From contig QQVD01000047.1 of NCBI GenBank assembly GCA_003388555.1, forward strand, positions 1-34,947: a stretch of 34,947 bases of DNA. The letters are read 5' to 3'. The notes below the pieces were generated by a model. That model was not told the origin of the DNA, did not search any database, and saw only the letters and a list, made by a program, of their open reading frames with translations. How positions within the stretch are numbered: the first letter of the stretch is position 1; every line of letters starts with the position of its first letter. Origin of the DNA: Acidobacteriota bacterium. GTDB lineage: Bacteria; Acidobacteriota; Thermoanaerobaculia; Multivoradales; Multivoraceae. Of the stretch, positions 8,277-12,381 are shown one piece after another. Both the position numbers and the translations under genes were made by a program.

Positions 8277-9731
8277 TCACTCGTCTTCGAAGCCGGCGGG
8301 AGGCACGAAGCGCAGGCCGCTCTGCTCGAGGAAGCGGGCCGCCTCGATGGTGATCCGGTCGCCCCACTCCGGGCCGGCGATCTGCACGCCGAGCGGCAGC
8401 CCTTCCGCTCCGGGCCCGGTCGGCACGACGGTGGAGGGCAGGAAGGCGACACCGGTGAGCCCGGCCCAGAAGATCTGCTCGAAGTAGGGACGCGGCGCGC
8501 CGTCGACGTCGATCGTGCGCTCGCCGAACGGGCGGTGGTCGTGGGGGAACGCCGGCGTCGCCATCATCGGCGTCAGCAGCACGTCCCACTGCTGGAAGAA
8601 CTCGTGCCAGGCCCAGCGCAGGTGGGTGCGCGCCTCGTGGGCCTGCAGCCAGTCGCGGTGCCTGAGCACCTGGTTGCGCAGGGTGCGCGCCCTGGCGCTG
8701 TCGTCGCCCGCCTCGAGCGCATCGGCGCGTGCGAGCAGCTCGGCGAAGCGCTCGTCGGGCAAGCGGCCCGACATCGCCGGCTGCAGCAGGCTGTCGTAGG
8801 TCGCCTGGGAGAGCGCCGGGTCGATCGCCGGTCGCGCCGCATGGTCGACCGTCGCTCCGGCGTCGGCGAACAGCTGCGCCACGGCCTCGATCCGCGCGCG
8901 GCTCTCGGCGCCGACCGGAGCCGCGGCGTCGTCGGGCCACACGGCGACGCGCCACGAGGCGATCGGCTTGCCGCTGACCGGCAGCTCGTAGCGCACGGCG
9001 CGCGCCGAGATCTCGTCGGGTCCGGCGAGCACCTGCAGCGCCAGCTCGAGGTCTTCGGCCGAACGGGCCAGCGGACCGATGACGGCGATGTCGGTGCTCG
9101 AGAGCACCCCGGGAGCGGCGTGGCCGCGCGGCGGCAGCAGGTCCCAGGTCGGCTTGTGGCCGAAGACGCCGCAGAAGTGGGCCGGGTTGCGGATCGAGCC
9201 GCCGATGTCCGAGCCCAGCTCGAGACCGGTGAGCCCGGCGGCCAGTGCCGCCGCCGAGCCGCCCGACGAGCCTCCGGGCACCCGCCCGGCGAGGTAGGGG
9301 TTCTCGGTGGTGCCGTAGATCTCGTTGTAGCTCTGGAAGTCGGCCAGCCGCAGCGGCACGTTGGTCTTGCCGAAGACGATGGCGCCGGCGGCCTCGAGCC
9401 GCTGCACCGCCAGGGCGTCACGCTCCGCGACGTTGCCCCGCATCTCGGGGATGCCGTGGGTGGAGGGCAGGCCGGCGACGTCGAAGCTCTCCTTCACCGT
9501 AATCGGCACGCCGTGCAGCGGCCCGAGGACCTCGCCCGCGGCCACGGCGGCGTCGGCCCGGCGCGCACGCTCGCGGGCCCGGGCCTCGTCGCGCGCCACG
9601 ACCGCGTTGATCTTGGGGTTGAGGCGCTCGACGCGGCCGAGGAAGTAGTCGAGCAGCTCCTCGGCACCGACCTCGCGGTCGCGTAGGGAGCGTGCCAGCT
9701 CGGTGGCGGAACGGAAGGCCCATCTGGTCAT
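8277..9731 (-). CDS. Amidase (amidase signature family)
   Basis: A 484-residue amidase-signature hydrolase. The Ser-cisSer-Lys triad can be placed: Lys80 in ITVKESFD, cis-Ser155 in PGGSSGGSAAAL and nucleophile Ser179 in GSDIGGSIRNPA. The order HGVPITVK, then GKTNVP, then the Gly/Ser-rich signature is the classic layout. No signal peptide is seen, so it is cytosolic. The ATG at 9731 is preceded by AGGAG at a good distance, which excludes the much longer open frame that continues upstream antisense-free but out of register with the channel gene. It follows the LtrA-Kir gene on the same strand after 53 bp and may share its transcript. It is closest in feel to broad acylamidases rather than GatA, since no GatB/C genes are near. 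Substrate unknown. Confidence 0.93.
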   Translation of the reverse strand: MTRWAFRSATELARSLRDREVGAEELLDYFLGRVERLNPKINAVVARDEARARERARRADAAVAAGEVLGPLHGVPITVKESFDVAGLPSTHGIPEMRGNVAERDALAVQRLEAAGAIVFGKTNVPLRLADFQSYNEIYGTTENPYLAGRVPGGSSGGSAAALAAGLTGLELGSDIGGSIRNPAHFCGVFGHKPTWDLLPPRGHAAPGVLSSTDIAVIGPLARSAEDLELALQVLAGPDEISARAVRYELPVSGKPIASWRVAVWPDDAAAPVGAESRARIEAVAQLFADAGATVDHAARPAIDPALSQATYDSLLQPAMSGRLPDERFAELLARADALEAGDDSARARTLRNQVLRHRDWLQAHEARTHLRWAWHEFFQQWDVLLTPMMATPAFPHDHRPFGERTIDVDGAPRPYFEQIFWAGLTGVAFLPSTVVPTGPGAEGLPLGVQIAGPEWGDRITIEAARFLEQSGLRFVPPAGFEDE

Positions 9732-9784
9732 CGCATCGGTCTCCTGATCACTGGTGGGGTCGGTGCCTCTGGCGGCCGCCGCTC

Positions 9785-11893
9785 TCACGGCTCGGCGGGA
9801 TCCGGGCGGGTGTCGTGGAACATCCGGTAGTCGATCGCCAGACGGCCGTCGTCGAGCAGCGACATCACGTCGACGAAGCGTTGACGCCAGCGGAACTGAT
9901 CGGGGTACCAGAAGTGGCGCGCGTGCACGGTGCGGGCGTAGGTGCCGTCGTAGCCGGTGACGGTGGCGATCACCGCCAGGATGCGATCCTCGACGTCGTG
10001 CTCGTCGAGGCCGTGCAGTGGGCTGCGCTCGTCGATCGGGTGGATCACCGTCCAGGACAGCGAGAAGAGGGGTTGCGAGTCGCGCACCAGCGCCATGTCG
10101 CGCACACGGCGCATGCGGTGCCCGTCCTCGGTGACCTCGTCGCACAGCGCGCTCAGCCGGATGCTCGCCTCGATCACCTCGTTGCCGCGCGCGTTGGCGA
10201 GCCGGACCACGAGCGCCGGTCTGCCTTCGAAGCGGGTGATCGTCGCCGGCTCGCTGAACAGCACGCTGGCGGTCGGCCGGGACGCCTTGGCGAAGAAGAG
10301 GCCCGTCATCAGGGCGGTGAACGCCAGCCCGCAGATCGCCTCGGCGACCACCAGGCCGTGGGCGTAGGGCGTGTCGGGCTGCAGGGTGCCGTAGCCGATG
10401 GTCGCGAAGGTCTGCACCGAGAAGGAGAAGGCGTCGAGCAGCGAGCGCGGATCGGCGTTGCGGACGCTGCCCTCCTGCATGATGTAGAGCGCCGCGAAGA
10501 CCAGGTTGGCGAGCAGGAAGCCGATGACGGCGGCGGAGAAGAGCCGCGCCCAGGAGCCGTGCATGAAGAAGTAGTAGAGGCCACGCTTGAGTCCGGACGG
10601 CGCTCCCTTGCGCACCGCCTCGAGCGGGTCGCGCATCCGGCCGCGGACCTCGGCTCTCCGCACCGAATCCGCCGAGCGCACCGCCCGGAACGTCGAGCGC
10701 AGCAGGTCGGAGTCCATCTCGTGATCGCTCATCGGCGCGATCGCCAGATCGGCCATCACCTGGGCGACGCAGACCGCCGCGATCAAGGCCAGGATCACCC
10801 AGTTGGCAGTGATCGCTCCGACGATGCCGATCGCCAGCACCACGACCACCGAGCCGGCGCGCATCCAGACACGGGCCGCGTCGTCCATCTGCGATTCGTC
10901 GCGCTCGGTCACCCAGTCGAGCACGGCGACGCTGGCGAAGACCAGCGCCAGGGAGCCGGTGAGCAGCCAGTGTGCGGTGCTGGCGGCGACGTCGGGATCG
11001 TGTCCGACCGCCTTCTTGAACCCGACGCCGAGCGCGGTGATGCCGATCGCCAGCGGCAGGTGACTGTAAAGCCAGATGTAGCGTGCGCCGGGACGCGGCC
11101 TGATGCGCGAGTGCACGACGTCGTCGAAGTAGATCCACCACACGCTGCAGGTGATCAGCAGCGCCAGCCCACCCTGACCGGCGGTTCCCCAGCCGACCCG
11201 CTCGGCGCTGTCGGCGAGGTCGCTGAGCACCTTCACGAACGACTCGCCGAGCACGATGATGGTCAGAAGGCCGTAGCGCTCGGCCATGTGGGCCGCGTCG
11301 GGCGGGTGCTGCAGGGTCAGCTCGCGCAGCCTGCCGCCGAAGGGCGCCGTCAGCTCGATCGTCAGGCCGACGGCCCAGATCGACCAGACCCAAGGCGGCG
11401 GGACGAAGGCGGACACCAGCCAGAACGCCGCGCCGACCCCGAACCAGGTCGCGTAGCGCGCCGACAGGGCGCGCGCTTCCTCCACCTGCAGCCATGCGCG
11501 CACATAGAAGAGCACGATCACCAGCCGCACCAGCACGTAGGCGAAGGCGAAGGGTCGCGTCTCACCCTCGAACACGCCCGGCGCCAGCACCGCCATGCAG
11601 GCGATACCGAACATCTTCACGAAGACCAGCAGCCGGTGCAGGCTGTCGTCGACCCGGAAGCGGTTCGAGTAGAAGGTGTATCCGGTCCAGGCGTACCAGA
11701 TGGCGGCGAACAGGGCGGCGAAGCCGAGGAAGCCGACCAGGTCGGCGCGCCGGCTCAGCGCGTCGCCGAGCTGGATGATCGTGGCGACGTAGACCAGGTC
11801 GTAGAACAGCTCGATCCAGGCCACGCGCCGCTCCTCGCCCGGCTTCGGGCTGTGCAGCTCGGGGGCGTGGAACCAGCGACTGCGCATGGCCAC
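9785..11893 (-). CDS. LtrA-domain / KirBac inward-rectifier K+ channel fusion protein
   Basis: One uninterrupted 702-residue frame holds two membrane modules. Residues ~20-385 match the LtrA (low temperature requirement A) family: the entry motif ERRVAWIELFYDLVYVA (21-37), AERYGLLTIIVLGESFVKVL (204-223) and about ten hydrophobic segments. Residues ~430-702 match KirBac channels over their whole length: slide helix (KRGLYYFFMHGSW, 436-448), TM1 (~450-471), pore helix and filter TIGYG (498-502, bases 10388-10402), TM2 (~512-534), then the cytoplasmic IRK domain (RPALVVRLANARGN; SWTVIHPIDERSPL; QRFVDVMS; DYRMFHDTRPDP). The Kir part should pass K+; what LtrA does is unknown. No internal Shine-Dalgarno sequence stands before Met388 or Met393, so separate translation of the channel is not suggested. 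Start is GTG 11893, or ATG 11887 two codons later. I do not know of a described LtrA-Kir fusion. Confidence 0.9.
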   Translation of the reverse strand: MAMRSRWFHAPELHSPKPGEERRVAWIELFYDLVYVATIIQLGDALSRRADLVGFLGFAALFAAIWYAWTGYTFYSNRFRVDDSLHRLLVFVKMFGIACMAVLAPGVFEGETRPFAFAYVLVRLVIVLFYVRAWLQVEEARALSARYATWFGVGAAFWLVSAFVPPPWVWSIWAVGLTIELTAPFGGRLRELTLQHPPDAAHMAERYGLLTIIVLGESFVKVLSDLADSAERVGWGTAGQGGLALLITCSVWWIYFDDVVHSRIRPRPGARYIWLYSHLPLAIGITALGVGFKKAVGHDPDVAASTAHWLLTGSLALVFASVAVLDWVTERDESQMDDAARVWMRAGSVVVVLAIGIVGAITANWVILALIAAVCVAQVMADLAIAPMSDHEMDSDLLRSTFRAVRSADSVRRAEVRGRMRDPLEAVRKGAPSGLKRGLYYFFMHGSWARLFSAAVIGFLLANLVFAALYIMQEGSVRNADPRSLLDAFSFSVQTFATIGYGTLQPDTPYAHGLVVAEAICGLAFTALMTGLFFAKASRPTASVLFSEPATITRFEGRPALVVRLANARGNEVIEASIRLSALCDEVTEDGHRMRRVRDMALVRDSQPLFSLSWTVIHPIDERSPLHGLDEHDVEDRILAVIATVTGYDGTYARTVHARHFWYPDQFRWRQRFVDVMSLLDDGRLAIDYRMFHDTRPDPAEP

Positions 11894-11997
11894 GAACCCT
11901 ATCCGCAGGGCGAGCGGGATCGTCTGCCCGGCGCGGGTTGCCTGACGGGAGTGATCCGCGGGTGGCCTCTACCCGCGACCGGGCGCTGGCGGCGCCG

Positions 11998-12381
11998 TCA
12001 GGCGAAGGAGGTGACGATGCACCACACTGCCGCCACCAGGATCACGAGGGTCGTCAGGCTGGCGCCGAGGCCACGCAGCGCGCTGCGCATGTTGGCGCTC
12101 AGCCCCATCGCGTGCGCCACCCGGGCGAGCACCAGCGTCGCACCGAGCACGTGCACCGCCGTGTTGCCGACTCCGTTCAGCTCGAGGATCGCGATGAGAA
12201 CCAGAGCGATCGGCGCCCACTCGGTGAAGTTGCCGTGCCGCCGCATCGCGGCGAGCTGGCGCGGATCGCCGCCGTCTCCCATCGAGACGCCGGTCTTCAT
12301 GCGCAGCAGACCGGAGCCGGCGCCGAGCACGATGGCGAGCAGGCCGAGCAGACCGGCGTAGAGAGCCGTGGTGGGAAGCAT
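11998..12381 (-). CDS. MAPEG family membrane protein
   Basis: A 127-residue protein with about four hydrophobic helices and the MAPEG pattern (membrane-associated proteins in eicosanoid and glutathione metabolism): LRMKTGVSMGDG after TM1, RRHGNFTEWAPIALVLIAIL in the middle (the RxHxNxxE/P core) and a second half with LARVAHAMGLS. Bacterial members of this YecN-like branch are common and mostly uncharacterised; glutathione-dependent chemistry is only a family guess. It lies 104 bp upstream of the LtrA-Kir gene on the same strand and 241 bp after the metalloprotease gene. Confidence 0.9.
   Translation of the reverse strand: MLPTTALYAGLLGLLAIVLGAGSGLLRMKTGVSMGDGGDPRQLAAMRRHGNFTEWAPIALVLIAILELNGVGNTAVHVLGATLVLARVAHAMGLSANMRSALRGLGASLTTLVILVAAVWCIVTSFA

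Follow-up and report, generated by a model that had tools for sequence, protein, structure and literature searches.

One gene in the window, a 34,947-nucleotide stretch of an Acidobacteriota contig (QQVD01000047.1), encodes an LtrA domain and, C-terminal to it, a complete KirBac-type channel with an intact filter. The fusion is an inherited chimeric channel in which the pairing of the two halves is conserved. The LtrA half is predicted to have the 12-helix fold (2 x 6) of TMEM175, a human lysosomal ion channel linked to Parkinson's disease, so that a single chain seems to unite two channel architectures that are unrelated to each other.

Organization of the ltrA-kir gene

The first-pass annotation described a single frame at 9785-11893. 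These coordinates hold as plus-strand numbering, but the strand, which is minus, was unstated, and the 702 aa given for the product are counted from a GTG. The start in most relatives corresponds to the ATG at 11887, the third codon of the 702-aa frame. Because most relatives begin there, this ATG is the likely start, which gives a product of 700 aa, and residues are numbered from it here. The following features were assigned.

9785..11887, minus strand: ltrA-kir fusion gene, 700 codons and stop (open frame, start of the relatives)
11893, minus strand: possible alternative start GTG, two codons upstream of ATG 11887
10763..11827, minus strand: LtrA domain, residues 21-375 (PF06772; TMEM175 fold predicted)
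11750..11818, minus strand: LtrA TM1, residues 24-46, with E26, F28 and D30 (ExFxD), A35 at the gate position, I38 at the threonine layer, and Q39
11210..11296, minus strand: LtrA TM7, residues 198-226, with H200, E203, R204, G214, E215 and the fusion-typical K219
10613..10732, minus strand: variable linker, residues 386-425, presumably cytosolic (low identity and low model confidence)
10553..10612, minus strand: slide-helix region of Kir, residues 426-445, R-x-G-[AT]-P ... D-L-Y (KirBac alignment and conservation)
10478..10558, minus strand: Kir outer helix (channel TM1), residues 444-470 (structure model)
10388..10402, minus strand: selectivity filter TIGYG, residues 496-500 (sequence and alignment)
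10283..10369, minus strand: Kir inner helix (channel TM2), residues 507-535 (model and alignment)
9806..10264, minus strand: cytoplasmic IRK_C domain, residues 542-694 (PF17655, E 2e-20; KirBac alignment)

The gene has a strong GC3 bias. Two long frames overlap it out of frame, at 8277-11495 on the minus strand (1072 codons) and at 9692-12361 on the plus strand (889 codons); these look like GC-rich mirror frames rather than genes.

Pfam places LtrA (PF06772) at residues 21-375 with E 1.7e-79 and 268.1 bits against a curated cut-off of 31.9. This is a full-length match (profile positions 1-353 of 356), and the ExFxD, H-xx-ER, GE and WW-x-YF motifs are common to the fusion and the LtrA family. 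In the Kir half, IRK (PF01007) lies at residues 481-538, Ion_trans_2 at 459-533, and IRK_C (PF17655) scores 73.6 bits against a curated cut-off of 22.5. With PF06772, PF01007 and PF17655 all placed, the proposal that both modules are complete is borne out. Two K+ channel models of NCBIfam match the fusion, both far below cut-off, and there was no curated NCBIfam match.

A profile made from 12 fusions aligned with 1p7b, which we take to be KirBac1.1, with an E-value of 5.8e-86; the aligned profile positions, 418-693, take in the slide-helix region. The fusion can be aligned with KirBac1.1 and KirBac3.1 along the whole channel, from the slide-helix region through both membrane helices and the TxGYG filter to IRK_C, and the structural match to KirBac3.1 shows about 40% identity. 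This match starts at residue 440 in most KirBac3.1 rows, and the slide-helix region of the fusion has low model confidence. Unlike KirBac, the fusion has about 425 additional N-terminal residues, comprising 12 predicted membrane helices and the linker. The TIGYG filter was correctly annotated at 498-502, counted from the GTG (496-500 from the ATG). All 33 aligned fusions have the pattern Thr/Ser-x-Gly-Tyr/Phe-Gly: both glycines are invariant (33/33), the first residue is Thr in 32 and Ser in one, and the aromatic residue is Tyr in 30 and Phe in three.

It had been proposed that LtrA is joined directly to the slide helix. This does not stand, as about 40 variable residues (386-425) lie between them. 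Mean pairwise identity in this linker is 18%, compared with 48% in LtrA, 54% in the membrane part of Kir and 49% in its cytoplasmic part. In the structure model, residues 381-450, which include the slide-helix region, have block means of 32-46. Since the linker is variable and confidence across 381-450 is low, LtrA looks tethered, not rigidly coupled, to the channel. The charge distribution shows that both ends of LtrA are cytosolic: the mean number of Lys and Arg residues is 10.9 in inner loops and 2.8 in outer loops (modelled helices, terminal segments left out). This is the orientation required by Kir.

Distribution and descent of the fusion

A scan of species genomes yielded 11 relatives, all of which have both halves; ten are complete and one is cut by a contig end. 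They share 37-64% identity with the window fusion, and the search patterns were taken from the query, which favours close relatives. Within the window's phylum, the full fusion is present in at least three of 396 genomes (best two candidates per genome scored), and LtrA scores above the family cut-off in 12 of the 396. In a second phylum, that of a distant relative and possibly Myxococcota, a full-length, one-frame fusion is present in at least 26 of 282 genomes, a lower bound for which the best four candidates per genome were scored. In this second phylum, three further matches (G439, G599 and G695) cross the joint without being complete, and two genomes have LtrA fragments only (G590 and G555). 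G616 carries a frame-broken relative of the fusion (L148:1560-3274), which may reflect decay or sequencing error. The three search sets overlap.

The alignment of 33 fusions comprises the window sequence, the 11 from the species genomes, one from the window's phylum and 20 from the second phylum; two incomplete sequences (L029 and L129) were kept in it. The fusions carry four phylum labels, Acidobacteriota, Myxococcota, Bdellovibrionota and Pseudomonadota, although these are rough, many of the genomes being metagenome-assembled. Co-occurrence of the two domains in one architecture, a check proposed in the first-pass annotation, is documented beyond the window.

A quick tree was built from 34 fused and 45 solo Kir domains (79 in total). 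All the fused rows fall in one branch (SH-aLRT 99), which also contains two solo rows. One of these, L133, runs off a contig end. The other, L132 (G550), is a Kir gene without LtrA in the 1.9 kb upstream, apparently through genuine loss of that half. Three state changes are required on the tree, which fits a single origin of the fusion. In the closest pair (L026/L028), the LtrA and Kir halves have dN/dS values of 0.067 and 0.062, respectively.

These data bear on the explanation that the fusion is an artefact or recent accident, produced by an assembly join or by chance read-through of neighbouring genes. Nothing was found in its favour; on plasmids, the LtrA and Kir families are found apart, and none of 161 matching plasmid records covers 80% of the query in one place. 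Against it, the two domains are arranged in the same way in all 33 aligned fusions, which come from many assemblies; the tree is compatible with a single origin, and the L026/L028 pair shows purifying selection. The explanation is refuted, and we give it practically no credence. The independent full-length relatives (37-64% identity), together with a dN/dS near 0.07 in each half of the one close pair, rule out a chance join, a frameshift or an error of assembly.

Among 20 ORFs scanned in the window are those for a fructosamine kinase, a phosphotyrosine phosphatase, a MAPEG protein, a reprolysin-like protease, a penicillin amidase and SelO, among others; these show no functional link to the fusion, and several ORFs matched nothing. 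In an all-against-all comparison of 13 neighbourhoods, most of the shared ORFs proved to be mirror frames of the fusion gene. Other matches were between L023 and L027, between L024 and both L026 and L028, and between repeat-rich ORFs of L027 and L030; the neighbourhood listing omitted the near-identical pair L026/L028. No neighbour gene recurs in most of the 13 neighbourhoods.

Several other LtrA loci were observed. Two genomes of the window's phylum (G068 and G392) encode LtrA with a C-terminal UBP-type zinc finger (PF02148), at L062:7158-8609 (plus strand) and L064:3706-5385 (minus strand). This is a second LtrA fusion architecture, which likewise places a second module at the LtrA C-terminus; unlike the Kir fusion, that module is a soluble zinc finger and there is no channel. 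On a Haloarcula litorea plasmid (L164:4959-7980), the residue equivalent to K219 in a standalone LtrA is also lysine, and the gene just downstream, in the same orientation, encodes a K+ channel with a TVGYG filter and TrkA_N and TrkA_C domains. By annotation, such a neighbour is absent at three other haloarchaeal LtrA loci and at a Pseudoalteromonas locus; three unannotated downstream gaps, two of them haloarchaeal, hold open frames without a K+ channel. The Haloarcula adjacency is a lead only. LtrA-like genes also match in eight phage records (Listeria four, Acinetobacter two, Staphylococcus one and unnamed one), and three of the five records H61-H65 are listed without annotation. A scan of viral contigs found no relative, and none of 14 well-known control genomes has LtrA.

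Predicted fold and fusion-typical residues of the LtrA half

Twelve transmembrane helices are predicted at residues 24-383, enclosing the LtrA domain. The model of the full-length fusion has a pLDDT of 73.8, and its residues 21-22 to 384-392 match human TMEM175 with Z 25.6-26.1. The best 50 Foldseek matches of this model were Kir-type rows only, and the LtrA domain was therefore modelled alone, from a 12-row alignment. The resulting model (pLDDT 84.5, pTM 0.85) has 12 helices and matches ten human TMEM175 entries at Z 21.2-27.5 over 297-344 residues, with rmsd 3.8-4.3 and 10% identity; the best of these has Z 27.5 and rmsd 4.0 over 341 aligned residues. Two MtTMEM175 entries match the N-terminal half (Z 13.6 and 11.4), and the best unrelated structure has Z 9.1. 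The titles of 6w8n, 6w8o, 6w8p and 7lf6 lack a protein name, and these entries were assigned to TMEM175 by sequence. In Foldseek, TMEM175 takes ranks 1-4 for LtrA alone, with probability 1.00 and TM-scores of 0.56-0.66 (next match 0.30), at modest E-values of 1.3e-3 to 7.3e-3.

The structural alignment opens with an 11-residue offset to human numbering in five of five human rows for the full-length model and in seven of ten for LtrA alone. D30 is therefore placed on human D41, the aspartate of the FSD motif. The number D41 was derived from MtTMEM175, in which D30 and Leu35 are given and Leu35 corresponds to human Ile46 (extract of PMC7176437). A weak hhalign match independently gives the same register, aligning ELFYD with EAFSD and W67 with the tryptophan of TM2, so that F28 and D30 lie on the FSD motif in two independent alignments. 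F28 is present in 32 and D30 in all 33 fusions. The motif is incomplete: in RxxxFSD, the Arg position is Trp in 33/33 fusions and the Ser position is Tyr, Phe or Val. The register of TM7 to TMEM175, which pairs E203 with E26, is an inferred one.

Sequence searches do not detect the link to TMEM175. The TMEM175 profile PF06736 had no HMMER match in the fusion or in nine standalone LtrAs at E up to 10, a search in which the filters drop most weak matches, and none in the window's genome, which has one LtrA. Against seven bacterial TMEM175 proteins, the N-terminal half of LtrA reached an hhalign probability of 9.8% (P 0.0033), the standalone LtrA set 4.4%, and the C-terminal half 1.9% and 0.2%; the two LtrA halves did not align with each other except at their shared end. 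Because Pfam gives no match and hhalign at best 9.8%, the proposed link to TMEM175 rests on predicted structure, together with the placement of conservation.

In the 33 fusions, TM1 and TM7 have mean entropies of 0.78 and 0.85, and the remaining ten helices have 1.37-2.09. TM1 and TM7 are also the lowest in 10 standalone LtrAs (1.08 and 1.36; the rest 1.69-2.30). The pore of human TMEM175 is lined by TM1 and TM7 (extract of PMC7141809). The predicted fold is therefore supported independently of the model, and this pattern says that the central TM1/TM7 axis of LtrA probably matters for function.

For residue comparisons, 27 standalone LtrAs were used: 10 genomic, 12 plasmid-borne (two archaeal) and five more. 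At position 35, where TMEM175 has a bulky gate residue (Ile46 in human, Leu35 in MtTMEM175), all 33 fusions have Ala, while 26 of the 27 standalone LtrAs have Val, Phe, Leu or Ile. At position 38, the threonine layer of MtTMEM175 (Thr38) has no counterpart in the fusions, which have Ile, Leu or Val (33/33); among standalone LtrAs, Ala, Thr or Gly is present in 21 of 27, with Thr in seven. K219 in TM7 occurs in 32/33 fusions and in two standalone LtrAs, from Haloarcula and Pseudoalteromonas. The view that K219 is missing from all standalone LtrAs, based on 0/10, was thereby overturned. E215, four residues before K219, is present in 32/33 fusions and in all 27 standalone LtrAs. D255-D256 is invariant in the fusions (33/33); in the standalone set, D255 occurs in 13/27 and D256 in 2/27. 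The full set of A35, Ile/Leu/Val38, K219 and D255-D256 is found in 32/33 fusions and 0/27 standalone LtrAs, from which the fusions also differ in their C-terminal channel. The charged residues typical of the fusions are found in TM7 and close to the ends of TM8 and TM9. In the two fusions with a change at E203 (L030 and L120), E215 or K219 and K291/K292 are changed as well, and in L112 only K292 is changed. This fits a linked charge network, suggested by two sequences only, with L112 standing apart.

The predicted fold is that of an ion channel, and the earlier proposal of a sensor module is therefore not the sole reading of LtrA. The fusion could be a two-pore protein, in which LtrA conducts ions or protons along its own axis, Kir conducts K+, and the fluxes are coupled; for example, K+ movement could be balanced by H+ or another cation. 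The TMEM175 fold predicted for LtrA would accommodate this, as would the position of the most conserved helices, TM1 and TM7, which are pore-lining, and the retention of E215 in fused and standalone proteins alike. Human TMEM175 conducts K+ (extract of PMC7141809); its principal ion, K+ or H+, is a matter of dispute (extract of PMC12818570). However, the fusions have Ala at the gate and Ile, Leu or Val at the threonine layer without exception, K219 is almost invariant, and mutation of the threonine layer lowers the K+ selectivity of TMEM175 (extract of PMC7176437). We consider a second pore rather unlikely. Equally doubtful is the wider form of this idea, in which two unrelated channel architectures in one chain would couple proton or cation movement to that of K+, and LtrA proteins would be a prokaryotic branch of the TMEM175 superfold with roles in transport or sensing.

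A possible regulatory role for LtrA

The reading that we prefer, tentatively and somewhat short of thinking it probable, is that LtrA acts as a module sensing ions, protons or a ligand and biasing Kir gating in cis. Four chains would form one Kir pore, and we infer that the Kir tetramer gathers four LtrA domains. Human TMEM175 is a homodimer (extract of PMC7141809), which suggests that the LtrA domains would pair as two TMEM175-like dimers beside the single Kir pore. The TM1/TM7 axis would no longer be a K+-selective pore of the TMEM175 type, because neither the gate nor the threonine layer is preserved and TM7 has acquired a lysine; it may instead sense protons, ions or a ligand through the E215/K219 cluster. 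LtrA would then bias opening of Kir in cis through membrane contacts and the tether, and not through a rigid link.

A regulatory role of this kind is plausible. Against it, the strong conservation of TM1/TM7 and of E215 would also fit a working pore, and suits the sensor and two-pore readings alike; with a variable linker and residues 381-450 poorly predicted, no coupling path is visible. The variable linker also leaves room for LtrA as an assembly or localisation module, which would aid folding, oligomerisation or targeting of the channel and would neither sense nor conduct. Kir genes without LtrA are common in the genomes searched, and L132, within the fused branch, is one such gene, as might be expected if LtrA were an accessory of this kind. 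A purely structural anchor would not be expected to constrain TM1 and TM7 more than the outer helices, or to carry the fusion-typical charges of TM7, TM8 and TM9, and we regard this explanation as distinctly improbable. The residue changes in the fused LtrAs appear to favour a sensor over these rivals.

The first-pass annotation regarded the pairing as undescribed, and no paper on an LtrA-Kir protein was found in one library of open-access full texts. The same holds in that library for LtrA with an inward rectifier, TMEM175 or a potassium channel; four of its papers mention PF06772. As far as the searches go, the LtrA-Kir combination and the link between LtrA and TMEM175 are new, and the parts themselves are of known kinds. 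No molecular function of LtrA was found in the literature; its name derives from a requirement for growth of Listeria in the cold. In Listeria monocytogenes, ltrA is one of three genes (LtrA, LtrB and LtrC) needed for cold growth, and the extract of that report mentions no notable change in ltrA expression (PMC5491136).

For research on Kir channels, the fusion offers a channel with a large built-in membrane partner. For research on TMEM175, it offers putative 12-helix relatives from prokaryotes that carry natural replacements at the gate and threonine layers. For LtrA itself, the fusion to Kir and the predicted TMEM175 fold together give a concrete idea of function, namely that these proteins may take part in ion handling or sensing at the membrane.
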